Below are positions 17 to 31,916 of a stretch of 34,417 bases of DNA, piece by piece. A model generated the notes under the pieces. That model searched no databases. It was not told the origin of the DNA and worked only from the letters and a program-made list of their open reading frames with translations. The first letter of the stretch is position 1. Each line of letters begins with the position of its first letter. Position numbers and translations under genes: made by a program. Location: NCBI GenBank assembly GCA_018268515.1, contig JAFDWK010000078.1, positions 3,097-37,513 on the forward strand, read 5' to 3'. This DNA is from Actinomycetota bacterium (lineage in GTDB: Bacteria; Actinomycetota; Actinomycetes; Actinomycetales; Microbacteriaceae).

Positions 17-628
17 TCAGGATCCAGCCGGCGGCGTCGGCTCGCCGAGCGACAGCATGAGGCGGTTGGCCCAGTTGAAGAACGCCGCGCTCTGCACCAC
101 ATCGACGATCGCCTGATCGTCGAGCCCCGCGGAGCGCAGGGCCTGCACGTGTGCGGTGCCGAACCGGGACGGGGTCGCCGTCAGCGCCGCGGCGGCCTCG
201 ATGATCGCGGTCCAGCGCTCGTCCTGCTCCCCGTCGATGCCCTCGTCCAGCAGCCGCTGCACGTCGTCGCGGCGCGAGGGCGCCTGGATCGTCGCGAACC
301 GGGAGTGCACCGAGGCGCAGAACAGGCAGCCGTTGGTGCGCGACGCGGCGGCGGCCGAGATCTCCCGCTCCGCACGACCGAGGCCCGCGTCGGTGTTGTA
401 GAAGATGTCGTTGTCGGCGCGAGTGCGGGCCCCGAGCACGACCGGGTCGCGCACGAGCAGACGGAAGTAGGGGCTCGCCGCGCGGGAGCGTTCGACGAGG
501 GCGGTGTAGTCGTCTTCGGTGAGCGCGGCCTCGGGCTTCGGCTCGAGCCAGGGCACCCAGCCGAGCTCTTCCGCGGTGAAGACGGCGGGGCCGGTCACCT
601 CGGGGTGACGAAGAACCTGCTCGGTCAT
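17..628 (-). CDS. AhpD-like alkylhydroperoxidase domain protein (Avi_7169-like)
   Basis: A 203-residue AhpD/carboxymuconolactone-decarboxylase-fold protein. The redox motif C101-LF-C104 followed by SVH (His108) is the CxxC...H signature of alkylhydroperoxidase-like enzymes, which reduce peroxides through the cysteine pair. Length and the N-terminal region resemble the Avi_7169 family, which is known to travel with the CMD and luciferase-like families encoded just upstream. It is the last gene seen in the minus-strand operon; its start lies 1 nt after the stop of the preceding gene, so translation is probably coupled. The physiological substrate is unknown. A role in removing peroxide or a reactive by-product of the monooxygenase step is inference. 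The operon may continue beyond the left edge. Confidence 0.85.
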   Translation of the reverse strand: MTEQVLRHPEVTGPAVFTAEELGWVPWLEPKPEAALTEDDYTALVERSRAASPYFRLLVRDPVVLGARTRADNDIFYNTDAGLGRAEREISAAAASRTNGCLFCASVHSRFATIQAPSRRDDVQRLLDEGIDGEQDERWTAIIEAAAALTATPSRFGTAHVQALRSAGLDDQAIVDVVQSAAFFNWANRLMLSLGEPTPPAGS

Positions 629-629
629 C

Positions 630-1217
630 TCAGATCGCCTCCTTCAGCACGGTGAGCCCCGCGACCACGCGGAGCTGGAAATGGGTGAACGCGACGAGCT
701 GTGAGAGCGTGACCACGCCGTCCGTGCTCCAGCCCGCATCGAGCAGCAGCTGCAACGCGTCCGGGCTCGCATCGCGGGGCCGGTACGTGAGCATGTGCGC
801 GTGCTCGAGGGCGGCCGCGAGCCGTTCCCCCACGGCGTCGCGCAGAGCCGCCGCGGCGATCCAGTGCAGGCCGTCCTCGTCCTCGACGCTGAGCGGTCCT
901 TCCGGATACGACCCATAGGGACCGGTCGTCAGCGCCCCTGGCAGCGCAGCGTCGATCGCCGCGCGCACCTCGGGATCGGCGGCGTCGAGCAGCGACCGGT
1001 AGTGGCCGGCGAGCCCGTCCGCGCGGCTGAGCGCGGCGACCCAGTAGCCGAGCGCGGCGCGCTCCGCAGCGGTCGCACGCGCGAGATCGGCGGGCGCCGT
1101 GATGAGCCCGTCGTACGTCGCCTGGGCATCGCTGCGCGCCACCGGCCGCTTGGCCCGCAGCGCATCGAGCGGGCTGCCCGCGGCGATGCCGACGAGGTCG
1201 TCGATCAGATCAGACAT
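630..1217 (-). CDS. CMD domain protein (Avi_7170-like)
   Basis: A 195-residue all-alpha protein of the carboxymuconolactone decarboxylase superfamily. The C-terminal stretch with RPRDASP and TLSQLVAF is typical of the Avi_7170 group. Unlike its downstream neighbour it has no CxxC pair, so classical peroxidase chemistry is unlikely; it may be a partner or a diverged enzyme. The ATG start overlaps the end of the luciferase-like gene by 8 nt, which indicates co-translation. It belongs to a three-gene module (luciferase-like, CMD, AhpD-like) attached to an ABC transporter. The family assignment rests on memory of the protein pattern, not on a search. Confidence 0.8.
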   Translation of the reverse strand: MSDLIDDLVGIAAGSPLDALRAKRPVARSDAQATYDGLITAPADLARATAAERAALGYWVAALSRADGLAGHYRSLLDAADPEVRAAIDAALPGALTTGPYGSYPEGPLSVEDEDGLHWIAAAALRDAVGERLAAALEHAHMLTYRPRDASPDALQLLLDAGWSTDGVVTLSQLVAFTHFQLRVVAGLTVLKEAI

Positions 1218-2370
1218 GGGTCTCCTCCGCGAAGGTCAGATCGAAGGCGTCGGATCCGGCCTCGGCGGCCGGAGACGGAGCAGGTCGCCGCCCGGTGGCC
1301 GCGGGGCTCCACCCCAGCGCCGGGGCGACCCGCGTCGCGATGAGCTCGAGCGAGCGCAGCAGCACCTCGTGCGACGGATCCACCGGGTGCGACTGGAACA
1401 CGATGTCGGTGGCGGAGGTGAGCACGTGGTCCTGCGCGAGCTCCTCGATGATCTGCTCCGGCGTGCCGATGTGCAGGTCGAAGAGGATCCGCAGCTCCTC
1501 GTCGCTCGCCCCGTCCGGCACCGTGATGCCCATCGGCCGGACGGAGGGGAACGAGCGCTCGATCCCGCGCGCGAGCAGCGCCGGGACATCGGCCACGTCG
1601 TCCACAACGACGAGGCCGCGCGAGGCGAAGGTGCGCGGAGCGATGCCGTCCGGCAACGCCGCCCGGTATGCGTCGATGACCAGTCGCTGGGTGTCGGCGA
1701 GCGCGGTGAGGCCGGATCCGGCCGTGTGCGGCTGCGACTTGGAGAGCATCAGGCCGGATCCGGCCGCGCCGATGCGCGCTGCGCCCTCGGCCGAGAAGGT
1801 CGCCTGCCAGAGCGTGTCGAGCAGTTCGGGGGCGGCGGGATAGAGTGCGCCGCCGTCGGCGGTGAGCTCGTCGCCCGCGAGCGCCGCGCGCAACCGGGCG
1901 AGATGCCGGGCATAGATCGCCCCACGCTCCTTCGGGTCGTGTCCGAACGGCCCGAACGAGCTCGGCGTGCCGCCGCTGCCGACTCCGAGCTCGAAGCGCC
2001 CCCCGCTGAGAAGCGAGAGCACGGCCGCATCCTCCGCCACCCGCAGCGGCTCCTCCAGCGGCAGCGTCACGATGCTCGTGCCGAGCACGATCGCGGACGT
2101 CTGCGCGGCGGCGTGCGCGAGGAAGACCAGCGGCGAGGGCAGCCCTCCCTCGGCCTCGTGGAAGTGGTGCTGCGCCACCCAGGCCGAGTCGAAGCCGAGC
2201 CGCTCCGCCGTGCGGATCTGCTCGAGCGCGAGCCGGTAGCGCCCGGCTGCGGGGGCGTCGTCGAGCACGCGGGTGAAGAATCCGAGCCGGGGTCCGCAGC
2301 GGCGGTCCGCGCCGGGCGAGACGCCGGGCGCGGCTGCGGACGAGGGCGGGGTCGGGGTCTGTGCGGTCAT
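1210..2370 (-). CDS. Luciferase-like FMN-dependent monooxygenase (KPN_01858-like)
   Basis: A 386-residue protein of the bacterial luciferase-like (F420/FMN) TIM-barrel superfamily. Visible signatures are LGFFTRVLDD near the start of the barrel, the RTAERLGFDSAWVAQHHF segment, LGTSIVTLP, and the GGRFELGVGSGG phosphate/flavin loop. Such enzymes oxygenate organic substrates with reduced flavin, which must come from a separate reductase not present here. The protein resembles the KPN_01858 family that co-occurs with Avi_7169 and Avi_7170 proteins. The start overlaps the livF-like stop by 4 nt (ATGA). The first ~28 residues are Pro/Ala-rich and probably disordered. The substrate is unknown; the transporter upstream presumably imports it. 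Confidence 0.85.
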   Translation of the reverse strand: MTAQTPTPPSSAAAPGVSPGADRRCGPRLGFFTRVLDDAPAAGRYRLALEQIRTAERLGFDSAWVAQHHFHEAEGGLPSPLVFLAHAAAQTSAIVLGTSIVTLPLEEPLRVAEDAAVLSLLSGGRFELGVGSGGTPSSFGPFGHDPKERGAIYARHLARLRAALAGDELTADGGALYPAAPELLDTLWQATFSAEGAARIGAAGSGLMLSKSQPHTAGSGLTALADTQRLVIDAYRAALPDGIAPRTFASRGLVVVDDVADVPALLARGIERSFPSVRPMGITVPDGASDEELRILFDLHIGTPEQIIEELAQDHVLTSATDIVFQSHPVDPSHEVLLRSLELIATRVAPALGWSPAATGRRPAPSPAAEAGSDAFDLTFAEETHV

Positions 2371-3092
2371 GAGCCGCTCCTTCCGAGGTAGGCCTCTTGA
2401 ATGCGGGGGTCGTGCAGCAGCTCCTGCGCCGAGCCCTCGGCGACGATCTCCCCCGTCGCCAGCACGTAGCCGCGCGAGGCGATCGACAGCGCGAGCTCGG
2501 CCTGCTGTTCGACGAGCAGCACGGCCACGCCGAGCTCGCGGTTGAGCCTGGCGATCTCGTCGAGCACCTGGTCCACGAGCTTGGGCGAGAGCCCCATGGT
2601 GGGCTCGTCCATGCAGATCAGCCGCGGCCGGCTCATCAGCGCCCGGGCGAACGCGAGCATCTGCTGCTCCCCGCCGGAGAGGGTGCCCGCCTCCTGCCGG
2701 CGCCGTTCGGCGAGCCGGGGGAAGTGCTCTCGCATCCGCTCGATGTCGTCCGCGATCTCCGCCCGGTCGCGCCGCGTGTACGCCCCGGCGTAGAGGTTCT
2801 CGTCCACGGTCATCTGCGGGAACACCCGCCGCGCCTCAGGCACGCTCGCAATCCCCGCACGCACGCGTCTCGCGGTGGAGCGATGGGTGATGTCGGCGCC
2901 CGCGAACGCGATCCGCCCGTCCTTGACCCTGTTCAGCCCGAGGATCGACTTCATGGTCGTCGACTTGCCCGAGGCGTTGCCACCGAGCAGCGATACGATC
3001 TCGCCCTCGCCGACGGTGATCGACACCCCGCGCAGCGCGTGGAAGGGGCCGTAGTAGACGTTCAGCGCGTCCAGGCTCAGCAGGGCGGTCAT
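2367..3092 (-). CDS. livF: ABC transporter ATP-binding protein, LivF type
   Basis: A 241-residue nucleotide-binding subunit of a hydrophobic-amino-acid-type (HAAT) importer. Walker A is GGNASGKST (about 37-45; Gly replaces the usual Ala after the first Gly), the signature is LSGGEQQ (138-144), and Walker B is RLICMDEP (157-164), followed by MGLSP as in LivF. The length is typical. The start overlaps the livG-like stop by ATGA. It pairs with the LivG-type subunit to drive the fused permease. The transported compound need not be an amino acid; the symbol marks family membership only. Confidence 0.92.
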   Translation of the reverse strand: MTALLSLDALNVYYGPFHALRGVSITVGEGEIVSLLGGNASGKSTTMKSILGLNRVKDGRIAFAGADITHRSTARRVRAGIASVPEARRVFPQMTVDENLYAGAYTRRDRAEIADDIERMREHFPRLAERRRQEAGTLSGGEQQMLAFARALMSRPRLICMDEPTMGLSPKLVDQVLDEIARLNRELGVAVLLVEQQAELALSIASRGYVLATGEIVAEGSAQELLHDPRIQEAYLGRSGS

Positions 3093-3961
3093 GCGGATCC
3101 CTCCTCGCTCGGGAACCCGGACCCCGGGGCTTCCCGCCGGCGTCCGAGGTAGGCCTCGATCACGGCGGGGTCGGTGCGCACGCTCTGCGGGTCGCCGGAG
3201 GCGATGATCCGGCCGCCGTCCATCACGATGACCCGGTCGGAGACCGTCATCACGAGATCGAGCTTGTGCTCGACGAGGAGGATCGCCTGCCCCGCCGCCT
3301 TCAGCTCGAGCAGCTGCGCGAGCACTTCGGCGGTCTCGGACTGGTTCATGCCCGCGGTCGGCTCGTCGAGCACGAGCAGCTTCGGCTGCAGGGCGAGCGC
3401 ACGGGCGATCTCGGTGCGTCGACGGTTCGCGTAGCTCAGCGTGTACGCGGGATCGTTCCGCCGCGGGCCGAGCCGCGCTTCGAACCGGTTGACCTCGACG
3501 TCGATCACCCGATCGATCTCGGCGCGCTCTCGCCGTGCGGCTGGGGTGCCGAAGACCGCGACGAACAGCTCGGCGAGGAGCGGGATCCAGCGCAGCAGGA
3601 AGACGTGTGAGAGCCGGCGGAAAGGCCGGTGCGCCTGGAGCTGCGAGTGGATCCCCACTTCGATGTTGTCGGCGACCGAGAGCGTCGCGAACGCCCGGCC
3701 GTTCTGGAAGGTGCGCGCGATGCCGTGCTCGGCGATGTCGACGGTGCTCGCGCTGTCGATGCGGGTGCCGTCCAGGGCGATCGTGCCGCCGTGTGCGGGG
3801 ATCGTGCCGGTCACGAGGTTGAGCGTGGTCGTCTTGCCGGAGCCGTTGGGTCCGATGATCGACACGACCTCGTGCGGCTGCACGGCGAACGAGACGCCGT
3901 CGACGGCGCGCACGCCCTCGAAGTGGCGTTCCAGATCCTTCACGTCGAGCAGGGCGGTCAT
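3089..3961 (-). CDS. livG: ABC transporter ATP-binding protein, LivG type
   Basis: A 290-residue nucleotide-binding subunit. Walker A is GPNGSGKTT (37-45), the Q-loop is FQNG (85-88), the signature is the LivG variant LSYANRRRTEIARAL (175-189) in place of LSGGQ, Walker B is LLVLDEPTAGM (195-205), and the H-loop His is at 232. The insert around 108-140 is normal for LivG. The ATG start at 3961 overlaps the permease stop by ATGA. The same frame stays open far upstream through the permease and binding-protein region, but only this part has ABC-ATPase sequence. The C-terminal tail (REAPGSGFPSEEGSA) is dispensable-looking. Confidence 0.92.
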   Translation of the reverse strand: MTALLDVKDLERHFEGVRAVDGVSFAVQPHEVVSIIGPNGSGKTTTLNLVTGTIPAHGGTIALDGTRIDSASTVDIAEHGIARTFQNGRAFATLSVADNIEVGIHSQLQAHRPFRRLSHVFLLRWIPLLAELFVAVFGTPAARRERAEIDRVIDVEVNRFEARLGPRRNDPAYTLSYANRRRTEIARALALQPKLLVLDEPTAGMNQSETAEVLAQLLELKAAGQAILLVEHKLDLVMTVSDRVIVMDGGRIIASGDPQSVRTDPAVIEAYLGRRREAPGSGFPSEEGSA

Positions 3962-5760
3962 GAGTTCCTCACCAGGACGCCGCCGGGCCGGAAGCGCACG
4001 ACGAGGATGAGCACGAGGCCGTAGACGATGATCCGCCACTCCGGTGTGAAGCGCAGCAGCTCCATCGCCCCGATGAGCACGATCGATCCCACGACCGCGC
4101 CGTAGGGCAGGCCCACGCCGCCGAGGATCACGATGGTGACGACGAGCAGGGACATCAGCATCGTGAACATCGTGGTGTCGATGTACGTGTACTGGTGCGC
4201 CAACAGGGATCCGCCGATGCCGGCGAAGAAGGCCGAGATCGCGAACGCGAGGGCCTTGTAGTCGCGCACCCGCACGCCGGAGGCGAGGGCGGCGACCTCG
4301 TCGGAGCCGACCGAGGAGATCACCCGTCCCAGATGCGAGCGCCGGATGCGCCACATCACCAGCAGGGTGAGCACCAGCACGACGAAGTCGATGAGGTAGT
4401 AGGCGAGTGGGGTGTTGAGGTCGATACCGGCGATGGACGGCACCGGGATCCCGTACACGCCCTGCGGCACGAGCAACTGGATCACAGCGACGATCGCGAT
4501 GCCGAGCCCGAGCGTGGCGATCGAGATGTAGTGCCCCTTCACGCCCCAGATCGGCGAGGCGAGGACCGAGGCGATCACGGCGGCGCCGATGCCGGCGAGC
4601 GGCAGCGCGACCCAGAACGACAGGTGCAGGTGCACGCTCAGCAGCGCCGAGAGGTAGGCGCCGATCGCGATCGGCCCCGCCTGCCCCAGCGCGAGCACGC
4701 CCGCCTGACCCGCCGTGATGGTGAACCCCGCGGCGATGATCGCGTAGATGAGCACCTGCGTGCCGGTGGTGAGCACGTAGGTGTCGGCGAGGATCGGCAC
4801 CAGCACCCCGAGCGCGATGAATGCGGCGATCCACACCCCGCGCGGGATGCGCAGCGGACGCCCCTTTCCGAGGAACGTGCCGGTGAGCGGCTCGGTCGAG
4901 ATCAACGGCACCCTGCCGAGCAGACCGCCCGGGCGCACGATGAGTACGACCAGCAGCACGACGAAGACGATGATCTGGCGCGCGGCGTCGCCGAACCAGT
5001 AGATCCCGAAGGCCTCCAGGATCCCCAGCACGAACCCGCCGACCACCGCGCCCACGAGGGATCCGAGCCCGCCGAGGGCCGCGGCGACGAAGGCCGTCAT
5101 GCCGATGTTGAGCCCGGACACCGGGTTCACGACGCCGATGTACAGCGAGAAGAAGATGCCCGCGAGGCCGCCGAGGCCCGACGCGATCACGAACGAGAGG
5201 TTCTGCACCGACCCGACCGGGATGCCCATCTGCAGGGCCGCCTCCTGGTCCTGCGCCGTGGCCCGGATGGCCCGACCGGTGCGGCCGTACTTGAGGAACA
5301 GCGACATCGCGACCATGACGACCGCCGTGATGCCCAGCATCACCAGATCCGAGGTGCCGAAGCGCATGTTCCCGATGTGCAGGTTCGACGTGGGCAGCAC
5401 CTGGGGGAAGGAGCGGAACTGCGCGGAGAAGGCGAGCTGGGATCCGTTGTCCAGGATCTGCGCCACCGCGTAGGTGGACAGCATCGCCGCGAGGGGCAGG
5501 TACTTCGCGAGCGGACGCACCACGGCGATGTTGATCACGAGACCCAGCAGGGCGCAGATCGCGAGCACGAGCGGCAGCGCGGCCCAGAACGGCAGTTGCA
5601 GCTGCACGACGAAGAACCAGGCCAGCATCGCGCCGAGCCCGAAGAAGGAGAACTGCGCGAAGTTGACGACGTTCATGACGCCGAAGACGAGCGAGATGCC
5701 GACCGCTCCGAGGGCGTAGACGTTCCCTCGGAGCAGGCCGGCGATCAGAGTGTCGAGCAT
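3958..5760 (-). CDS. Fused LivH-LivM branched-chain-type ABC permease
   Basis: A 600-residue integral membrane protein in which both permease subunits of a HAAT importer are joined. Residues 1 to about 290 are LivH-like (GVMNVVNFAQFSFFGLGAM, then the GLGSLVGAVVGG region). After a short linker, residues about 305-600 are LivM-like (FTITAGQAGVLALGQAG; GGVGLPYGAVVG near the end). Each half carries about eight to ten hydrophobic segments. Separate livH and livM genes are the usual arrangement, although fusions are known. It forms the transmembrane pore and is followed directly by the two ATPases. Its start lies 21 nt after the binding-protein stop. Confidence 0.92.
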   Translation of the reverse strand: MLDTLIAGLLRGNVYALGAVGISLVFGVMNVVNFAQFSFFGLGAMLAWFFVVQLQLPFWAALPLVLAICALLGLVINIAVVRPLAKYLPLAAMLSTYAVAQILDNGSQLAFSAQFRSFPQVLPTSNLHIGNMRFGTSDLVMLGITAVVMVAMSLFLKYGRTGRAIRATAQDQEAALQMGIPVGSVQNLSFVIASGLGGLAGIFFSLYIGVVNPVSGLNIGMTAFVAAALGGLGSLVGAVVGGFVLGILEAFGIYWFGDAARQIIVFVVLLVVLIVRPGGLLGRVPLISTEPLTGTFLGKGRPLRIPRGVWIAAFIALGVLVPILADTYVLTTGTQVLIYAIIAAGFTITAGQAGVLALGQAGPIAIGAYLSALLSVHLHLSFWVALPLAGIGAAVIASVLASPIWGVKGHYISIATLGLGIAIVAVIQLLVPQGVYGIPVPSIAGIDLNTPLAYYLIDFVVLVLTLLVMWRIRRSHLGRVISSVGSDEVAALASGVRVRDYKALAFAISAFFAGIGGSLLAHQYTYIDTTMFTMLMSLLVVTIVILGGVGLPYGAVVGSIVLIGAMELLRFTPEWRIIVYGLVLILVVRFRPGGVLVRNS

Positions 5761-5781
5761 GGTGCAGGCGGCCCCGGCCGC

Positions 5782-6951
5782 TCAGCCCTGGATGGCGACC
5801 CAGGCGCCGTCCTTCAGCACGGTCGGGGTGAGTTGCGGCGAGGCGGGACGACGCGTCTCCTTGTCGAACGAGAGCTTGCCGTAGACGACGCTCGGAACGT
5901 CGCTGATCTGCTGGAAGCCTGCGAGGATCCCCGCGCGGTCGGTGCCGCCCTTCTTCGCGGCAGCGACGGCGACGTGCAGCGCGTCGTACGCGCCGGCCTC
6001 GAAGAGGGTCACGTCCTTCTCCTCGGGGTACTTCGCCTTGAACGCCTTCACGAACGCCTGCACGGCCGGGTCGGTGCTGCCGGAGACGAACTCGGTGCCG
6101 ATGACCGAACCCGCCGCATCCGGCGTGCCGTTGAAGGACTGCTCGTCCTGCCCGCCGTAGAACGTGCCGGTGAACCCGATCGCCCGCAGCTGGGTGACCA
6201 GCTTGGCGGCGTCGGGACCGTAGCCGATGTGCGCGAACGCCTTCGGGCTCCCGGACACGGCCTTGGTGAGCGACGGACGGTAATCGTCGGAGGCGGGGTC
6301 GATGGCTTCCGCGTCGGTGATCTTCAAGCCGATCTTGTCCGCCTCGGCCTTGAACGCCTGGAAGGCGGGGATGCCCCAGTCGGCGGTGTTCAGGTAGGTG
6401 ACGCCGATCGAGTCCACGCCCTGCTTCTTGATGTAATCGGCCGTCCAGGTGTAGCTGGCGGCGGTGGTGATGGCACTGGACCACTGGTACTGCGTGCCCT
6501 TGACCGTGAAGTCCGGGTTGGAGTTGTTGAAGCCGTACTGCAGCAGCTTGCCGGCGGTGTAGATGGGCGAAGCCGGGATGGATGCGGCCGAGGAGTAGTC
6601 GCCGAACACCAGCGAGACCTGCGGGTCGTTCACGAACTTCTGCGCGACGGTGACGGACTGCTTGGGATCGGACTGCGAGTCCTCGTACTTGAGGGCCACG
6701 GGATGGCCGTTGATGCCGCCGTCCTTGTTGACCTCATCGACGGCGAGATCGAAGGCCTTCTTGAACTGCTCGCCGTACTGGGCGTACTGACCGGTCTGCG
6801 CGGCCGAGACGCCGAAGTAGACGGTGCTGCCGGCCGAGGAGGATCCGGACGGCCCGTTGGCGGCGGCCGTGAGGCTGCACCCGGCCAGGGCGACGGCGGC
6901 CGTGGTGGCCATGACGGCGACGAGCGCGATGCGTCGAATGTTCCCTGCCAT
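5782..6951 (-). CDS. HAAT-type ABC substrate-binding lipoprotein (LivK-like)
   Basis: A 389-residue extracytoplasmic solute-binding protein. It starts with a lipoprotein signal (MAGNIRRIALVAVMATTA) and lipobox ALAGC (Cys25), then a Ser/Gly linker and the peripla_BP_6 fold (TVYFGVSAAQTGQYAQYGEQ; AVDEVNKDGGINGHPV; YEDSQSDPKQSV). The start at 6951 was chosen over an in-frame extension to 7212 because it begins the signal peptide and is preceded by GGGAGG with good spacing. First gene of the operon, as expected for the most abundant component. The ligand cannot be read from sequence. Association with the monooxygenase module argues against a plain leucine transporter, but that is inference. Confidence 0.9.
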   Translation of the reverse strand: MAGNIRRIALVAVMATTAAVALAGCSLTAAANGPSGSSSAGSTVYFGVSAAQTGQYAQYGEQFKKAFDLAVDEVNKDGGINGHPVALKYEDSQSDPKQSVTVAQKFVNDPQVSLVFGDYSSAASIPASPIYTAGKLLQYGFNNSNPDFTVKGTQYQWSSAITTAASYTWTADYIKKQGVDSIGVTYLNTADWGIPAFQAFKAEADKIGLKITDAEAIDPASDDYRPSLTKAVSGSPKAFAHIGYGPDAAKLVTQLRAIGFTGTFYGGQDEQSFNGTPDAAGSVIGTEFVSGSTDPAVQAFVKAFKAKYPEEKDVTLFEAGAYDALHVAVAAAKKGGTDRAGILAGFQQISDVPSVVYGKLSFDKETRRPASPQLTPTVLKDGAWVAIQG

Positions 6952-7272
6952 GGTGGGCCTCCCTCTGGCCGTCATGAGACGGACCGGTGCGGTTCGGGCG
7001 CCGCGCGATCCACGACGCCCTGCGGATGCCCGCGGTCCGGGTCGGCCGGGGCGTCCACCCACATTCACACGGGGGCCGGATCCGGCCGTCGAGTGTGTCG
7101 GTTTTCGACGCCGTGTGACGTCATCGACGGCGGTCTGTGACGCAGGAGGTCCGGATTCGCTCCGCTCGGATCCGGAAGGGGCGTGGCGGGAGTACGCTGG
7201 CCGGCTCGGCACCCGGGTCCCGGGAAGCCGCGCCCCGCGCCCCGGGCCTGGCCGTCTCCGCGCGCCCGGCCC
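6952..7272. other. Intergenic region upstream of the transporter operon
   Basis: No convincing gene in these 321 bases. It must hold the promoter of the minus-strand transporter operon, but no clear -35/-10 pair stands out. It contains the 14-bp palindrome GGCCGGATCCGGCC (7074-7087) flanked by CACAC and GTGTG, the 8-bp palindrome TGACGTCA (7116-7123), and a 7-bp stem TCCGGAT/ATCCGGA (7150-7156 and 7170-7176) that could end the upstream DUF4386 transcript. The palindromes are candidate operators only. Confidence 0.4.
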
Positions 7273-25062: not shown

Positions 25063-26262
25063 CTATGAACGCGGTGCGTCGCCCAGGTCGGGGATCGCGA
25101 GCCGGACACCGCCCTGCAGCGCGGATCGATGGGCGATGATCCCCGGCATCGTGTACCGCGCAGCCTCCCAGGCGTTCACCGGAGGAAGAGTTCCGGTCGC
25201 CACGGCGACGGCGAAGTCATCGACCAGGAACTGGTGGCTGCCCTCGTGCCCGCTCGGCATGGCGCGCAGCGATTCGGGCAGACGGGACGGGTCGTGCACG
25301 AGTGAGAGCCCGGACACGAAGGCGTCTCTCAGCGCCGGGTCGACATCGGCCAGCGACGGATCATCGGCGTCGACGGTGGCTCGGGTCCTGATGAGATCGG
25401 ACACGTCCGTGTACCCCTCTTTGTCCTGCCAGACCGCTGTGGCGACCAGCTGCTCGAAACTGCCCTCGGTCCCGAAGTAGCGGAACCGGCTCTCGCGCAG
25501 ATGCGACGGGTACCCCACCCGGCGGAACTCGTTGATCCGCATCGCGCCGCCTCCGTCCAGCTCGAACAGGGCCGTGGCGTTGGAGAAGTCGTTGTCGAAC
25601 ATGCTGACTTCTCGATCGAAGACGCCATCGCCGCGGTCATCGCGGACGCCGATGCAGCTGACGCTGACGGCGTGGCCCCCGATAGCCCCGAGAACGCCGC
25701 CGACGGAGTGCGTCGGGTAGAGCATGGGGGGATAGCTGGCGGTGCTCTTCCACTCCTCGCCCCCCGAGTACTGATAGGCGGCATAGAAGCCGAGGTCCAT
25801 GTCATGGACGTAATCTCCCTCGGCGTAGAAGATCCGCCCGAATGCACCTTCCCGCCGGCGATCGCGGGCGTAGACGGTGGCCGGGTTGTAGAAGCTGGTC
25901 TCGCCCATCATGTAGATGAGGCCGGTCTCGGACACGGCGTCGACGATCGCGCGGATCTCCTCCTCGCTGACCGCCATCGGCACGGCCGAGTACACATGCT
26001 TGCCGGCCCGCAGCGCGCGCACGACGAGCGGGCCATGAGTCCATCGCTGGGTGAAGATGGCGACCGCATCCACATCGCTCTGCAGCAACGCATCGAAGCT
26101 CGGGAACGTACCGGTGAGGCCCTGCCGCGCGGCGAGACCGCTCGCGCGCTCCGTGACGACATCGGTGACGAACACGTCTCCCACGAGAGGATGCGCGGCG
26201 AACAGCTTGGCGAACTGGCCGGAGAACTGGCCGGCTCCGACGATACCGAGCGAGAAGGTCAT
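25063..26262 (-). CDS. Gfo/Idh/MocA family oxidoreductase
   Basis: A 399-residue NAD(P)-dependent sugar oxidoreductase. The Rossmann loop is LGIVGAGQFSGQFAKLF; the substrate domain has YDYVHDMDLGFY-like and PMLYPTHSVGGVLG segments. The usual EKP motif after GKHV is replaced by AVP (SAVPMA, Val94 in place of Lys), as in some family branches; this Lys normally takes part in catalysis, so the reaction may differ from simple C-3 oxidation. First gene of the minus arm of the galactoside locus, followed directly by lacI. No clear ribosome-binding site. It likely acts on the monosaccharide released by the alpha-galactosidase. Confidence 0.88.
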   Translation of the reverse strand: MTFSLGIVGAGQFSGQFAKLFAAHPLVGDVFVTDVVTERASGLAARQGLTGTFPSFDALLQSDVDAVAIFTQRWTHGPLVVRALRAGKHVYSAVPMAVSEEEIRAIVDAVSETGLIYMMGETSFYNPATVYARDRRREGAFGRIFYAEGDYVHDMDLGFYAAYQYSGGEEWKSTASYPPMLYPTHSVGGVLGAIGGHAVSVSCIGVRDDRGDGVFDREVSMFDNDFSNATALFELDGGGAMRINEFRRVGYPSHLRESRFRYFGTEGSFEQLVATAVWQDKEGYTDVSDLIRTRATVDADDPSLADVDPALRDAFVSGLSLVHDPSRLPESLRAMPSGHEGSHQFLVDDFAVAVATGTLPPVNAWEAARYTMPGIIAHRSALQGGVRLAIPDLGDAPRS

Positions 26263-26281
26263 GGGGCGAGTGTTTCACGGC

Positions 26282-26376
26282 CGGTTACACGAGTCAACAG
26301 AATTTGAAATTGACGCTTGACATGCACTGCATTCATGCAGCACACTCATCTGCATCGAGAGTTACTCGTGTAACTC
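26282..26376. promoter_or_regulatory. Divergent promoter region with two LacI-type operators
   Basis: GAGTTACTCGTGTAACTC (26359-26376) is an 18-bp near-palindrome with central CG, the LacI-family hallmark. A second copy, CGGTTACACGAGTCAACA (26282-26299), matches the reverse complement at 12 of 18 positions, also with central CG. They are 77 bp apart, one near each divergent start. TTGACA (26317-26322) is a good -35 for the plus arm; the -10 is not clear. Between lies a further inverted repeat CTGCAT-TC-ATGCAG (26327-26340). Confidence 0.7.
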
Positions 26377-26411
26377 ACCGCTTAGCAGTCACTCGGACAA
26401 CGGAGTACGAC

Positions 26412-27350
26412 ATGGCAACGACAGCCACGCTGGTGGCCGGCAGGAGCCGGAGACGGATGAAGGACGGGGTTCCTCGTCGAAACGGCCGGAGCGACCTGCG
26501 CGTCGCCCTCGTGTTCATCGCCCCCGCGATGATCGGACTGGTCGTCTTCTACCTGATCCCCACGATCCGCGGCATCTACCTGAGCTTCACCGAATACAGC
26601 ATCCTCGGCGACCCCACGTGGATCGGCACGAAGAACTACGAGCAGATCGCACAGGACCCGCTGTTCTGGAACGCGATGGTGATCACGATCGAGTACGTCG
26701 TGATCAACATCGTGCTGCAGACCGCCCTGGCCCTGGGGCTCGCGCTGCTGATGAACAAGGTCGCGAAGTCGACGTTCGTCCGCGGCGGCCTGCTCATGCC
26801 GTATCTCATGGCGAACGTCATCGCGGCGATGCTCTGGTTCTGGATGCTCGACTACAACATCGGCATCGTCAACGAGATCATCTCCGCGCTCGGATTGCCG
26901 AAGATCGCGTTCTTCGGCAACGCGGAGTGGGCGATCCCCACCCAGGCGCTGATCAACACCTGGCGGCACATGGGCTACACGGCCCTGCTGATCTTCGCCG
27001 GCCTGCAGGCCATCCCGGCCACCGTGTACGAAGCGGCCAAGATCGACGGCGCCGGACCCTTCTCCATCTTCGGGCGGATCACCCTTCCCCTGCTGCGCCC
27101 TGTGCTCGCGCTGGTGCTCGTGCTCACCGTCACCGGATCGTTCCAGCTCTTCGACACGGTCGCCGTGACGACCGCCGGCGGCCCGATCAACGCGACCCGG
27201 GTGCTGCAGTACTACATCTTCCAGAAGGCGTTCGGCGAACAGGAGTTCGGTTACGGCTCCGCCGTCGCGGTCGTCCTCTTCATCATCCTCGCGATCATCG
27301 CGTTCATCCAGATGAAGTTCCTCCGCGGCAACCAATCCGATCTGGCCTAG
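26412..27350 (+). CDS. Sugar ABC transporter permease (MalF/UgpA type)
   Basis: A 312-residue inner-membrane permease with six hydrophobic segments. It has ALVFIAPAMIGLVVFYLIPT at the start and the EAA loop EAAKIDGAGPFSIFGRITLPLLRP that contacts the ATPase. ATG 26412 is preceded by GGAG; a longer frame from 26304 is rejected as it crosses the operator. Works with the next two genes as an importer. No ATPase is encoded in the window, so it must use a shared MsmK/MalK-type subunit encoded elsewhere, as is common for such importers in Gram-positives. Confidence 0.93.
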   Translation: MATTATLVAGRSRRRMKDGVPRRNGRSDLRVALVFIAPAMIGLVVFYLIPTIRGIYLSFTEYSILGDPTWIGTKNYEQIAQDPLFWNAMVITIEYVVINIVLQTALALGLALLMNKVAKSTFVRGGLLMPYLMANVIAAMLWFWMLDYNIGIVNEIISALGLPKIAFFGNAEWAIPTQALINTWRHMGYTALLIFAGLQAIPATVYEAAKIDGAGPFSIFGRITLPLLRPVLALVLVLTVTGSFQLFDTVAVTTAGGPINATRVLQYYIFQKAFGEQEFGYGSAVAVVLFIILAIIAFIQMKFLRGNQSDLA

Positions 27351-27365
27351 GCAAAGGAGCCCATC

Positions 27366-28295
27366 ATGACCGAGACCATGACCATCGTCGCCCCCGGCCG
27401 CACGAGGCCGCGCGGAGGCCGCAGCGCGTCCCGCTGGCGCCGTGTCGTGCCGCTGATCCTGCTCATCCTCGCCCTCGCGGTGAGCATCCTGCCCTTCTAC
27501 TGGGTGCTGCGCACCTCGCTGTCCTCGAACGCGGGGCTCGTGTCCGATCCGTTGAGCCTGCTCCCCGTGGACTTCAACTTCGGCGCCTACGCCCGCGTCT
27601 TCGGCCTCCAGTCGACGCAGGAGGCGATCGCCCAGGGCGGCTCCGGCGCATCGATCAACTTCTGGCTCTACCTGCAGAACTCGACGATCTACGCGGGCAT
27701 CACGACCCTGTTCGCCGTCTTCTTCAGCTGCATGGCGGCGTATGCGTTCTCCCGCCTGCACTGGCGCGGCCGGGACCTCGTCTTCGGCATGTTCCTCGCG
27801 ACGGTCCTCATCCCTACGATCTTCACGGCACTGCCGAACTTCCTCCTCGTGCGCAACCTCGGGCTGCTGAACACGATGCTCGGCCTCGTCCTTCCCTACC
27901 TGTTCATGACGCCGTTCGCGATCTTCTTCATGCGCCAGTTCTTCCTGAACATGTCCCGCGAGGTCGAGGAAGCCGCGATGCTCGATGGCGCGAACCACTG
28001 GCGCATCTTCTTCCAGATCGTGCTGCCGAACGCGGCGGCGCCTCTGGCGACGCTCGCGCTGCTGACGTTCATGACCCAGTGGAACGACTACTTCTGGCCG
28101 CTGCTCGTCACCGACGAGAACACCCGGGTCCTGACGGTCGGTCTGGGCGTGTTCAAGTCCTCGACTCCGCAGGGTTCCCCCGACTGGGCCGGGCTCATGG
28201 CCGCCACACTTCTCTCCGCACTGCCCGTGCTCATCCTGTTCTTCATCTTCGGCAAGCGAATCGTGAACTCGATCGGCTTCAACGGCACCAAATGA
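27366..28295 (+). CDS. Sugar ABC transporter permease (MalG/UgpE type)
   Basis: A 309-residue permease with six hydrophobic segments; ILPFYWVLRTSL near the N-terminus and the EAA loop EEAAMLDGANHWRIFFQIVLPNA. AGGAG ribosome-binding site, 15 nt after the previous stop. Forms the heterodimeric pore with the upstream permease. The proteins of this type take up oligosaccharides; given the downstream GH36 gene, alpha-galactosides such as raffinose or melibiose are the likely cargo (inference). Confidence 0.93.
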   Translation: MTETMTIVAPGRTRPRGGRSASRWRRVVPLILLILALAVSILPFYWVLRTSLSSNAGLVSDPLSLLPVDFNFGAYARVFGLQSTQEAIAQGGSGASINFWLYLQNSTIYAGITTLFAVFFSCMAAYAFSRLHWRGRDLVFGMFLATVLIPTIFTALPNFLLVRNLGLLNTMLGLVLPYLFMTPFAIFFMRQFFLNMSREVEEAAMLDGANHWRIFFQIVLPNAAAPLATLALLTFMTQWNDYFWPLLVTDENTRVLTVGLGVFKSSTPQGSPDWAGLMAATLLSALPVLILFFIFGKRIVNSIGFNGTK

Positions 28296-28341
28296 ACGTC
28301 TCTCCCTCCCCTCTCACCACAATCCCGATAAGGACTGCATC

Positions 28342-29667
28342 ATGAAACTCAAGGCCATCGGCGTCATCGTTGCCGCCGCGACCGCGGCTGTCGCGCTCAC
28401 CTCCTGCAGCGGAGGCGGCGGATCGAGCAGCAGCACCGTCCAGTACTGGCTGTGGGACGCGAACCAGCTTCCCGCCTACCAGCAGTGCGCGACGGATTTC
28501 CAGAAGGCGAACCCCGGCACCACCATCAAGATCACGCAGCTCGGCTGGGACGACTACTGGACCAAGCTCAACAATGCGATGGCGGCCGGCAATGCGCCCG
28601 ACGTCTTCACCGACCACCTCGCGAAGTACCCCGACTTCATCAAGACCAAGCAGCTCCTGTCGCTGGACGACCTCAAGGTCGACTACAGCGCCTACAACGA
28701 GGGCCTGGCGGACCTGTGGGTCGGCCCCGATGGCAAGCGTTACGGCACCCCGAAGGACTGGGACACCGTCGCGATCTACTACAACAAGAAGATGGCCACG
28801 GATGCGGGCCTCACCGAAGACCAGATGAACCACCTCACCTGGAACCCCGATGACGGCGGCACCTACGGGCAGGCCATCGCCAAGCTGACGGTCGACAAGA
28901 ACGGCAAGCACGGCGACGAGCCCGGCTTCGACAAGAACAACGTCGCGGTATACGGCTTCGGCCTCAACCAGTCCGGCGGAGGCACCGGGCAGGTGCAGTG
29001 GTCGTTCCTGACGGCGACGACCGGCTGGACGCACACCGACAAGAACCCGTGGGGCACGCACTACAACTACGACGACCCGCGATTCCAGAAGACCATCGCG
29101 TGGTGGGCCGGGCTCGTCGACAAGGGCTACATGGCCAAGCTCGAGACCACGGTCGGTTCGAATGCGGCCGACACGTTCGGCGCCGGCAAGTCGGCGATCA
29201 ACGTCAACGGCGACTGGATGCTCGGCCAGTTCAGCAGCTACAAGGGCATCGACCTCGGCATCGCGCCGACGCCGGTCGGCCCGAACGGCAAGAGCATGTC
29301 GATGTTCAACGGCCTGGCCGACTCGATCTGGGCGGGCACGAAGAACCCCGAGGGCTCGAAGAAGTGGGTGACCTATCTCGCTTCCGCGGCGTGCCAGGAC
29401 GTCGTCGGCACCAAGGGCGTCGTGTTCCCGGCCACCAAGTCGGGAACCGACAAGGCCATGGCCGCCTTCAAGGCGAAGGGCCTGGACGTCAGTGCGTTCA
29501 CCTCCCACGTGACGGACAAGACGACCTTCCTGTTCCCGATCACCGACAACGCCGCCAAGATCGACGGGATCATGACCCCGGCGATGGACGCGGTCGTGTC
29601 CGGCCAGGCCAAGGCGAGTTCGCTCACCGCGGCCAATGATCAGGTCAACGCCCTCTTCAAGAAGTGA
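28342..29667 (+). CDS. Sugar ABC transporter substrate-binding lipoprotein
   Basis: A 441-residue solute-binding protein. Lipoprotein signal MKLKAIGVIVAAATAAVALTSC with Cys22, a Gly/Ser linker, then the SBP_bac_1 fold (VQYWLWDANQLPAYQQCATD; NAPDVFTDHLAKYPDF; YGTPKDWDTVAIYYNKKM; SAINVNGDWMLGQF). AAGGA lies upstream of ATG. Aromatic-rich regions (WSFLTATTGWTHTDKNPWG) suit a sugar site. Third gene of the plus arm. A strong hairpin follows immediately, which would let this protein be made in excess of the downstream enzyme. Confidence 0.93.
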   Translation: MKLKAIGVIVAAATAAVALTSCSGGGGSSSSTVQYWLWDANQLPAYQQCATDFQKANPGTTIKITQLGWDDYWTKLNNAMAAGNAPDVFTDHLAKYPDFIKTKQLLSLDDLKVDYSAYNEGLADLWVGPDGKRYGTPKDWDTVAIYYNKKMATDAGLTEDQMNHLTWNPDDGGTYGQAIAKLTVDKNGKHGDEPGFDKNNVAVYGFGLNQSGGGTGQVQWSFLTATTGWTHTDKNPWGTHYNYDDPRFQKTIAWWAGLVDKGYMAKLETTVGSNAADTFGAGKSAINVNGDWMLGQFSSYKGIDLGIAPTPVGPNGKSMSMFNGLADSIWAGTKNPEGSKKWVTYLASAACQDVVGTKGVVFPATKSGTDKAMAAFKAKGLDVSAFTSHVTDKTTFLFPITDNAAKIDGIMTPAMDAVVSGQAKASSLTAANDQVNALFKK

Positions 29668-29672
29668 CCGCC

Positions 29673-29709
29673 GAAGGGCACGGCGGCCGAGGCGGCCGCC
29701 GTGCCCTTC
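29673..29709 (+). terminator. Strong hairpin after the binding-protein gene
   Basis: Perfect 16-bp GC-rich stem (29673-29688 with 29694-29709, core GGGCACGGCGGCC) and a 5-nt loop, 5 nt after the stop codon. No T-run. Placed inside the operon it probably stabilises the upstream message or ends most transcripts before the alpha-galactosidase gene. Confidence 0.75.
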
Positions 29710-29744
29710 CGTACGACAGACAGACCGACAGACGAGAAAGATCC

Positions 29745-31916
29745 ATGAGCACCCTTCACCTGCGTTCCGACACCGTCAGCGTTCTTCTCGGCACCGGATC
29801 CGATGACGCTCCCCAGGCGGAGATCATCCACTGGGGCCCCGTGATCGCGGATGTCGACGCCGACCTGCGACTCGTCGCACCACCGGTTCCGCACTCGACC
29901 CTCGACGTCCCCGTCGTCGCAGGGCTCGTGCCCCAGGCATCATCGGGCTGGCTCGGCCGGCCGGGCCTGCGCGGCAGCAGGGACGGCCTGTCCTTCTCAC
30001 CCGCCCTGCGGCTGACCGACCTGACGCCCACCGCGGACGGCCGCGGCGCCCGCGTCGTCCACACCGACGATGCGGCCGGCCTCGAGGTCGCTCACGATCT
30101 CCTGCTCCACCCCGACGGCATGCTCGAGATCACCGCCGAGATCGTCAACCGCGGGGATGCTCCCTACCGGCTCGATGAGCTCGCCCTCGTCCTGCCCGTT
30201 CCCGCGACGGCGAGCGAGCTCCTCGACCTCTCCGGCCGCTGGTGCCGTGAACAGCACCCCCGCCGGCATCCCGTGCAGGACGGCACCTGGGTGCGATCCG
30301 GTCGGCATGCCCGCACGGGTCACGACTCGTCGCTGCTGGTCGCCGTGGGCACGCCCGGTTTCGGCAATAGGCACGGACGCGTGTGGGCGACCCACTTCGC
30401 GTGGTCCGGCGACCGCGAGCAGTACCTCGACGCGGTGGTCGACGGGCGGCGGATGCTCGGCGCTTCGGAACTGCTCGGGTCGGGCGAGGTCGCCCTGGCG
30501 GCCGGGGAGACCTACCGCACCCCGACGCTGTTCGCGGCATACTCCGACACCGGCATCGACGGCATCACCGACACGTTCTACCGCTGGTTCCGCAGCCGTG
30601 GGTCGCATGTCGCACGTCCCCGGCCGGTCGTCCTGAACACCTGGGAGGCGGTGTACTTCGACCACCGGCTCGAACCGCTCACCGAGCTCGCCGACCGCGC
30701 CGCTGCGGTCGGCGTGGAACGATTCGTCCTCGATGACGGGTGGTTCCGCGGCCGTCGCGACGACACGGCAGGGCTCGGCGACTGGTACGTCGATGAGGAG
30801 CGCTGGCCCGACGGACTCGGCCCGCTGATCGACGCCGTTCACGAGCGGGGCATGGAGTTCGGGCTGTGGGTCGAGCCGGAGATGGTCAACCCCGATTCCG
30901 ACGTCGCACGCGAACACCCCGAGTGGATCAGCCGGCCCACCGTCGCCGTCCCCCCGGCCGCGGGCGGCCGGGTGCCGCTCCCGTGGCGCCACCAGCAGGT
31001 GCTCGACCTCACCAACCCGCACGCATGGCAGTACGTGTACGACCGTATGCACGCGCTCCTCGGCGAGTACCGGATCGCCTACCTGAAGTGGGACCACAAC
31101 CGCGACCTGTCCGAAGCCGGGCATGAGGGCAGGCCGTCCGTCCATGCCCAGACGCTTGCGGTCTATCGGCTGATCGACGCGCTGAAGGCGGCCCACCCGT
31201 CCGTGGAGATCGAGTCCTGTGCTTCCGGTGGAGGCCGCGTCGACCTCGGCATCCTCGCCCGCACCGACCGGGTCTGGCCGTCCGACTGCAACGACGCGCT
31301 CGAGCGGCAGACGATCCAGCGCTGGACCCAGGCGGTTCTCCCCCCGGAACTCGTCGGCGCGCACATCGGCCCGGCCCAGGCGCACACCACCGGGCGGGTG
31401 CTCGACATCTCGTTCCGCGCCATCACCGCGCTGTTCGGGCATCTGGGGATCGAATGGGATCTCCGCACTGCGAGCGCGAGCGATCTGCGCGCCCTCACCG
31501 GCATCATCGATCTCTACAAGACGCATCGCGGCCTCCTGCACACGGGCACGCGGGTGAACGCCGATCTCGCCGAGCCCGCCCTCGCGTTCCACGGCGTCGT
31601 GTCTCAGGATCGCAGCGAGGCCCTGTACTCCCTGGCTGCGCTGGGAACCACCGTGGCCGAGATGCCGGGACGCCTCGGGATCCCGGGACTGGATCCCGAA
31701 CGGCGCTACCGGCTGGAGATCGTCTACCCCGCGGCCGGCGAGCTCGATGAGCACGGCGACCATGACTCGCTCGGCCCGTTCATGCAGACCTCGGCGCCGG
31801 CCTGGGTCGCAGGCGGCGCGGAGGCGTCGGGATCGTTCCTCGGCGAGGTCGGGGTATCCATGCCGGTCCTCCGCCCCGAGCACGCGATCCTGCTGCACGT
31901 CACGGCGGTCGGCTGA
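29745..31916 (+). CDS. Alpha-galactosidase, glycoside hydrolase family 36
   Basis: A 723-residue GH36 enzyme that releases terminal alpha-galactose from oligosaccharides. An N-terminal beta-sandwich (1-~285) is followed by the TIM barrel: TWEAVYFD, FVLDDGWFRGRRDD, FGLWVEPEMVNPDSD, the nucleophile in YLKWDHNRD (Asp450), ESCASGGGRVD, and the acid/base in VWPSDCND (probably Asp514). A C-terminal beta domain completes the family's normal length. No signal peptide, so it acts in the cytoplasm on imported sugar. ATG 29745 with a weak GAGAAAG; the frame's earlier part runs through the hairpin and is not coding. Last gene of the plus arm. Confidence 0.95.
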   Translation: MSTLHLRSDTVSVLLGTGSDDAPQAEIIHWGPVIADVDADLRLVAPPVPHSTLDVPVVAGLVPQASSGWLGRPGLRGSRDGLSFSPALRLTDLTPTADGRGARVVHTDDAAGLEVAHDLLLHPDGMLEITAEIVNRGDAPYRLDELALVLPVPATASELLDLSGRWCREQHPRRHPVQDGTWVRSGRHARTGHDSSLLVAVGTPGFGNRHGRVWATHFAWSGDREQYLDAVVDGRRMLGASELLGSGEVALAAGETYRTPTLFAAYSDTGIDGITDTFYRWFRSRGSHVARPRPVVLNTWEAVYFDHRLEPLTELADRAAAVGVERFVLDDGWFRGRRDDTAGLGDWYVDEERWPDGLGPLIDAVHERGMEFGLWVEPEMVNPDSDVAREHPEWISRPTVAVPPAAGGRVPLPWRHQQVLDLTNPHAWQYVYDRMHALLGEYRIAYLKWDHNRDLSEAGHEGRPSVHAQTLAVYRLIDALKAAHPSVEIESCASGGGRVDLGILARTDRVWPSDCNDALERQTIQRWTQAVLPPELVGAHIGPAQAHTTGRVLDISFRAITALFGHLGIEWDLRTASASDLRALTGIIDLYKTHRGLLHTGTRVNADLAEPALAFHGVVSQDRSEALYSLAALGTTVAEMPGRLGIPGLDPERRYRLEIVYPAAGELDEHGDHDSLGPFMQTSAPAWVAGGAEASGSFLGEVGVSMPVLRPEHAILLHVTAVG

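Follow-up and report, generated by a model that had tools for sequence, protein, structure and literature searches.

The enzyme trio made up of a luciferase-like monooxygenase (LLM, TIGR04027), a CMD protein (TIGR04029) and an AhpD-like protein (TIGR04030) is already known, NCBIfam having named families for its members and for the binding protein TIGR04028 that goes with them. In this module (KPN_01854-KPN_01858; Avi_7169/Avi_7170), the three enzyme genes follow a complete ATP-binding cassette (ABC) importer of the peptide/nickel class within one operon. The window analyzed here, a stretch of 34,417 nucleotides from a member of the Microbacteriaceae (contig JAFDWK010000078.1), contains an operon with the same LLM, CMD and AhpD order downstream of a complete ABC importer. 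Its importer, however, belongs to the HAAT (LIV-type) class, and unlike in the Klebsiella module, where CMD and AhpD are one gene, the two are separate.

Several other described systems resemble parts of this locus. The LivJ/LivHMGF importer shares its domain set and the fold of its substrate-binding protein with the window importer, which nevertheless differs from it in scoring under the equivalog cut-offs, in its fused permease and in its dedicated enzyme partners. PCX02514 from Klebsiella (PDB 8K74), whose claimed substrate is a polymer, is of the same family as the window LLM and, at 481.6 bits to the LLM profile, is the closest solved LLM. The aspartate N-hydroxylase FzmM (PDB 8CP2/8CP5) is full-length kin of an enzyme that replaces the LLM in sister operons, though not in the window. 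Finally, cg2678-cg2674 of Corynebacterium glutamicum, in the McbR regulon, likewise combines ABC importer genes with a CMD-type protein, and is described as sulfur-regulated in excerpts of two reports (PMC2580772, PMC2807442); unlike the window, it has a peptide-type importer in a genome without an over-cut-off TIGR04027, and the likeness is one of layout. Searches of open-licence PMC papers brought up neither the HAAT pairing and its exchange pattern nor a settled substrate for the widespread enzyme trio.

The window operon and its importer

The operon runs on the minus strand from position 6951 to 17, with the importer genes first and the LLM, CMD and AhpD-like genes after them. All seven genes described in the original prediction as overlapping or nearly abutting were found there. 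The first encodes a HAAT-type substrate-binding lipoprotein (5782..6951; Peripla_BP_6, PF13458, over cut-off) with an LAGC lipobox, and an alternative in-frame ATG lies 24 nt upstream of its start at 6951. After 21 nt follows a fused LivH-LivM permease of 600 amino acids (3958..5760), which has two BPD_transp_2 (PF02653) stretches (259.4 bits), and then come a LivG-type ATPase (3089..3961; PF00005 and PF12399 over cut-off) and a LivF-type ATPase (2367..3092; PF00005). Overlaps of 4 nt (ATGA) join the permease to LivG, LivG to LivF, and LivF to the LLM. PF12399 scores 43.4 bits in LivG against a cut-off of 25.5, and 19.6 bits, under that cut-off, in LivF.

The three enzymes score over the curated cut-offs of the very families that the original prediction had named for them. 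The LLM (1210..2370) reaches 451.6 bits to TIGR04027 LLM_KPN_01858 (cut-off 412.9), the CMD protein (630..1217), which has no cysteine, 170.7 bits to TIGR04029 CMD_Avi_7170 (cut-off 100.75), and the AhpD-like protein (17..628), with a C-x2-C-x3-H motif, 270.7 bits to TIGR04030 perox_Avi_7169 (cut-off 233.15). The LLM and CMD genes overlap by 8 nt, and 1 nt separates CMD from AhpD. The description of the importer as fused into an oxidation operon holds for the operon and for LivH-LivM, but not for the transporter and the enzymes, which are separate proteins.

Assignment of the importer to the HAAT class was borne out, its Peripla_BP_6, BPD_transp_2 and ABC ATPase domains all being over cut-off. 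Peripla_BP_6 takes the place of a TIGR04028 protein as the partner, and a search of the genome (G000) for TIGR04028 gave no match at E <= 1e-100. No reductase gene lies within the operon. Just beyond the start of the window, a run of N directly adjoins the 3' end of the AhpD gene (L006, about 3010-3110) and is followed by a serine-hydrolase-like lipoprotein gene, as judged by eye; the 3' end of the operon is therefore incompletely covered.

Distribution and history of the HAAT pairing

HAAT is a recurrent minority partner of the enzyme trio. Of 247 genomes of the window's genus, 94 have TIGR04027 over cut-off and 76 have TIGR04028 over cut-off; relatives of the window permease (E <= 1e-40) occur in 21. 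Partners were counted within 12 kb of 96 TIGR04030-type loci (89 over the cut-off and 7 under it): an LLM occurs together with TIGR04028 at 70 loci and with a HAAT importer at 6, while 12 have a HAAT importer without an over-cut-off LLM, and the remainder have TIGR04028 only (2), an LLM only (3) or neither (3). No AhpD locus has both importers. AhpD flanks 18 of 18 HAAT permease loci at >= 45% identity, the set used in the census (with G090 in two pieces); five weaker permease matches (31-36% identity) were left out, and by eye none of these is near an AhpD locus. The TIGR04028 genes of G046, G103 and G194 lie on other contigs, outside the census. Of the LLM-only loci, L251 is a peptide-type operon truncated where its contig ends, and L049 has peptide-type ATPases. 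Among the 12 HAAT loci lacking an over-cut-off LLM, five AhpD genes are under the TIGR04030 cut-off (195-206 bits), and in one locus (L201 of G090) the LLM is present as frameshifted pieces. Several frameshifts run through that operon, in a one-contig assembly of 68% completeness, and may be sequencing errors or decay.

The usual importer is indeed of the peptide/nickel type, as the original prediction had it: a Paenarthrobacter partner protein scores 844.6 bits to TIGR04028 (cut-off 468.5), and the same layout occurs at the Klebsiella locus and at that of Allorhizobium ampelinum S4, which we take to be the source of the Avi_ genes. The proposal that the enzyme module had been paired with a different uptake system is supported, since in the genus sample the enzymes fall within the named families and HAAT is not their usual partner.

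The gene order of the window is repeated in 5 more of the 247 genomes. It also occurs, whole or cut by a contig end, at 16 of the best 80 of at least 541 LLM relatives in genome contigs, 3 of which (L067, L069, L070) are contigs already among the 5 genus genomes. Because the same order recurs across genus genomes and contig loci, it is not a product of chance. The HAAT operons among these 80 loci come from Microbacterium or related metagenome-assembled genomes (MAGs), Leifsonia, Cryobacterium, Hamadaea, Variovorax, in which additional genes interrupt the operon (L100), and two alphaproteobacterial MAGs; the rest comprise a cut-off HAAT copy (L075), two loci cut by contig ends (L116, L127) and 61 with peptide-type importer genes. 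These 80 loci are the nearest to the window LLM and over-represent HAAT, so that the partner frequencies they give for organisms beyond the class are biased. L074 and L075 are module copies at both ends of one Leifsonia aquatica contig, possibly through an overlap in the assembly. Of 345 genomes sampled from the class, 9 (5 of the window's genus) have TIGR04027 over cut-off, and the importer is HAAT in 1 (the window), peptide-type in 7 and not apparent in 1.

In the permease tree, the 37 subfamily members form one clade (99*) apart from 26 unlinked permeases, defined as having no CMD/AhpD match within a flank of at most about 1.5 kb. Thirty-six of the 37 adjoin CMD/AhpD-type genes, and the other, L221, has OsmC and VOC genes only. 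In the class sample, matches to the window permease from beyond the genus reach 35% identity at best. The LLM tree requires 4 changes of the HAAT label, all forced by starred branches, and a careful LLM tree of 55 hand-picked rows out of 107 requires 5. A single clade of the 15 HAAT-linked LLMs, a group defined once the first tree was known, is rejected in the careful tree (p-AU 1.5e-11), and with it a single origin of the HAAT pairing as judged by LLM sequences. One origin within the actinobacteria is compatible with the test (p 0.386), although these rows are not one clade in the careful tree, and in the AhpD tree only 2 label changes are forced by starred branches. Since the LLM sequences reject a single origin while the permeases form one clade, importers have probably been exchanged repeatedly around the enzymes.

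The Variovorax LLM and AhpD nest with peptide-type sequences of Comamonadaceae, and those of the two alphaproteobacterial MAGs likewise fall among proteobacterial ones. The simplest reading of these placements would be that the enzymes were retained and the importer changed. The Variovorax locus carries OsmC and VOC genes, as are found near eight peptide-type loci of Comamonadaceae. For the Rhodospirillales MAG (L137), the closest LLM kin, L116 and L127, are cut by contig ends and show no importer, and importer exchange is thus not shown there. On the V. paradoxus VAI-C plasmid (CP063167.1), a HAAT importer with OsmC and VOC genes (L221) lies about 60 kb from an LLM-CMD-AhpD set (L220).

Oxygenase exchange around the CMD/AhpD pair

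Like the importer, the LLM is exchangeable. An FzmM-like flavin monooxygenase (PF13454), with FzmM as its nearest relative, is encoded near 11 of 11 HAAT loci without an LLM, as well as near two LLM-less TIGR04028 loci and two with an importer of a third, FecCD type. At the latter (L248:8435-14726 and L250:8416-14693), a Peripla_BP_2/FecCD/ABC importer is situated between a CMD-AhpD protein and the FzmM-like protein, and in L250 an FMN reductase gene stands beside the locus. One peptide-type CMD/AhpD locus lies between two FzmM-like gene copies (L247 of G067).

The constant core across loci is the CMD/AhpD pair. The C-x2-C-x3-H motif, which we take to be the AhpD signature, is present in 117 of 118 AhpD-type sequences compared, and the aligned part of CMD is free of cysteine in 107 of 107 sequences, those of the window included in both cases. 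The invariant residues of CMD are R21, R24, R53, L158, G162, Q173 and Q181. Domain scores show the two proteins to be fused in L200, Azospirillum and L248/L250, and length and place indicate the same for Klebsiella and Erwinia. They may form a heterodimer with one redox-active subunit. A broader proposal is that the pair, rather than the oxygenase, defines a pathway for one nutrient, with the cysteine-less CMD as an obligate partner of AhpD, and with three importer classes (peptide/nickel, HAAT and FecCD-type) and three flavin oxygenase types (TIGR04027 LLM, FzmM-like PF13454 and another FAD/NAD(P) oxygenase-like protein) interchangeable around this fixed core; we hold this tentatively, as a little more doubtful than probable. 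The HAAT pairing in further lineages, the replaceability of the LLM and the constancy of the CMD/AhpD pair all lie beyond what the original prediction could see.

The one TIGR04027 enzyme that has been studied, from Klebsiella (8K74), is reported, in an excerpt of PMC11354265, to use NADPH but not FMNH2 for the oxidation of poly(acrylic acid). Of its proposed active-site residues (R10, R125, S186, R187, H253), mapped through a Klebsiella relative, the window LLM keeps R10, R125 and S186, while R187 is replaced by lysine and H253 by valine, the latter at a position that varies across the family. Lysine at the R187 position occurs in 8 of 19 HAAT-linked rows, including the window, and arginine in 88 of 88 other rows. 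With only these 8 of 19, and none of the 3 proteobacterial rows, R187K was rejected as a marker of the HAAT pairing. The known organosulfur LLMs SsuD, SfnG and DmoA/NtaA are not among the best 25 of the 27 families matched; the 25th scores 24.1 bits and the other two are weaker by E-value, well below the 279.7 to 518.2 bits that SsuD, SfnG and DmoA/NtaA require. TIGR04027 LLMs without CMD/AhpD have an O-acetylhomoserine sulfhydrylase-type gene nearby in ten genus genomes (L037, L041-L047, L052, L058), and at L037, L041 and L047, the three loci with gene order inspected, the gene in between resembles an LLM by eye.

Candidate solutes

We regard the chances as evenly balanced that the operon as a whole imports and oxidizes a solute, most likely an organosulfur compound, with HAAT standing in for the TIGR04028 importer. 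The lipoprotein would capture a small solute for import by LivHMGF, and the LLM would oxygenate it with reduced flavin mononucleotide (FMN) from elsewhere in the cell. CMD and the C-x2-C AhpD would together form a thiol reductase/peroxidase acting on the product or on a peroxide by-product. The solute would be used as a sulfur source, and the HAAT importer would replace the peptide-type TIGR04028 importer, the partner of these enzymes at most of the loci studied.

Organosulfur scavenging is our best guess, and draws on sulfur regulation in Corynebacterium together with some sulfur-gene neighbors. C. glutamicum has matches over cut-off for TIGR04028 and TIGR04030. Its cg2678-74 genes, which encode a peptide-type importer and CMD protein, are described in the excerpts of PMC2580772 and PMC2807442 as under McbR control and as transcribed at a lower level when cysR is mutated, and an excerpt of PMC6892785 reports cg2678 to be up together with the ssu genes and metY under total starvation. 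In relatives, the neighboring genes include those for a CysB-family regulator and a sulfurtransferase, tauA and SfnB-like genes, and one for a sulfonate-binding protein; around the HAAT loci L222 and L221, genes for a cysteine dioxygenase and a TauD-type protein are visible. The Cryobacterium HAAT locus has an O-acetylhomoserine sulfhydrylase-type gene nearby, with 51% identity to the L041 protein, as do 10 of 14 genus LLM-only loci, with 86-100% identity to that protein.

A number of observations weigh against an organosulfur solute or the proposed chemistry. No sulfur gene is seen beside the window operon, and among 12 annotated plasmid loci that carry the enzymes, chosen by hand, clear sulfur neighbors are found at only 3 (L220, L227, L242). 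The other nine are L219, L224, L226, L228, L240, L241, L243, L244 and L245, of which L241, L244 and L245 have a second LLM nearby that was not counted; L225, which has no LLM and whose short CMD gene adjoins genes for cysteine desulfurase, EpsC and rhodanese, was excluded. These sulfur-neighbor counts are raw, without a background for enrichment. Upstream of the loci, no Rfam riboswitch was found at gathering thresholds in 20 sources, where only a tRNA turned up, and no McbR-like site lies within two mismatches of the McbR motif at 11 loci, the best having 3-4. That cg2678-74 is the C. glutamicum TIGR04028/TIGR04030 locus is suggested by its layout, and a profile search of that genome gave no over-cut-off TIGR04027. 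The kinship of the FzmM-like replacement with an aspartate N-hydroxylase fits N-oxidation at least as well. Lastly, the activity reported for 8K74 depends on NADPH and not FMNH2 (PMC11354265, excerpt), in contrast to the FMN step assumed here.

The best-surviving alternative, which we nonetheless consider unlikely, is that the module imports a nitrogen compound, either amino-acid-like or an aminopolycarboxylate/metallophore, and cleaves or oxidizes it at nitrogen, with the LLM and FzmM-like enzymes as equivalent N-oxygenases. Such a compound or chelate would be compatible with the kinship to FzmM, with the importer classes and with what was reported for KPN_01858 under iron limitation. However, the window binding protein has a glutamine where alignment with 4n0q puts an acidic residue, presumably the amino-group binder of LIV proteins. 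An invariant serine at position 144 of the binding-protein alignment adjoins what we take to be their carboxylate-binding site. The tau, sulfonate and CysB neighbors in relatives also speak against a nitrogen compound, and TauC increased in the same iron-limited proteome as KPN_01858, so the iron-limitation result may itself reflect sulfur. The McbR/CysR sulfur regulation of the Corynebacterium genes as excerpted (PMC2580772, PMC2807442) likewise weighs against this alternative.

Far less probable is a role in breaking down polymers or xenobiotics, poly(acrylic acid) being the example reported for the Klebsiella TIGR04027 enzyme. An operon with an ABC importer is ill-suited to a polymer of about 2000 Da, and a reaction with NADPH only, without FMN, is unusual for this class of enzyme. 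Both the NADPH-dependent oxidation and the 8K74 structure, with its strong score to the LLM profile, are reported in PMC11354265, but the word 'operon' occurs 0 times in the text of that report.

The least credible reading, already disfavored, takes the importer for a common branched-chain amino acid system that only happens to lie by the enzymes, given that, despite its HAAT domains and fold, the LivF/G/H/M/J and Urt equivalog models are all under cut-off among the matches listed (PRK11614 LivF 237.6/441, LivG 213/362, UrtE 215.2/285.8, UrtB 172.5/250.3), AhpD flanks the permease subfamily at every genus locus of at least 45% identity, if at none of the weaker matches, and this subfamily is a clade apart from unlinked permeases.

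Upstream of the operon, a short block (7093..7110, minus strand) emerged from an alignment of the window with L067 and L068, and is common to these two closest relatives only. Elsewhere in the window (25063-31916), a Gfo/Idh oxidoreductase gene lies next to a sugar ABC importer and a GH36 alpha-galactosidase, with the permeases and a LacI-like regulator judged by eye.

An unrelated importer thus feeds the enzyme trio, apparently in several lineages independently, and attention shifts from the LLM to the CMD/AhpD pair. The isolated assignment of the TIGR04027 enzyme to polymer degradation is called into question. Besides the TIGR04028 protein, the HAAT lipoprotein would offer a second binding protein with which to find the substrate of the trio.

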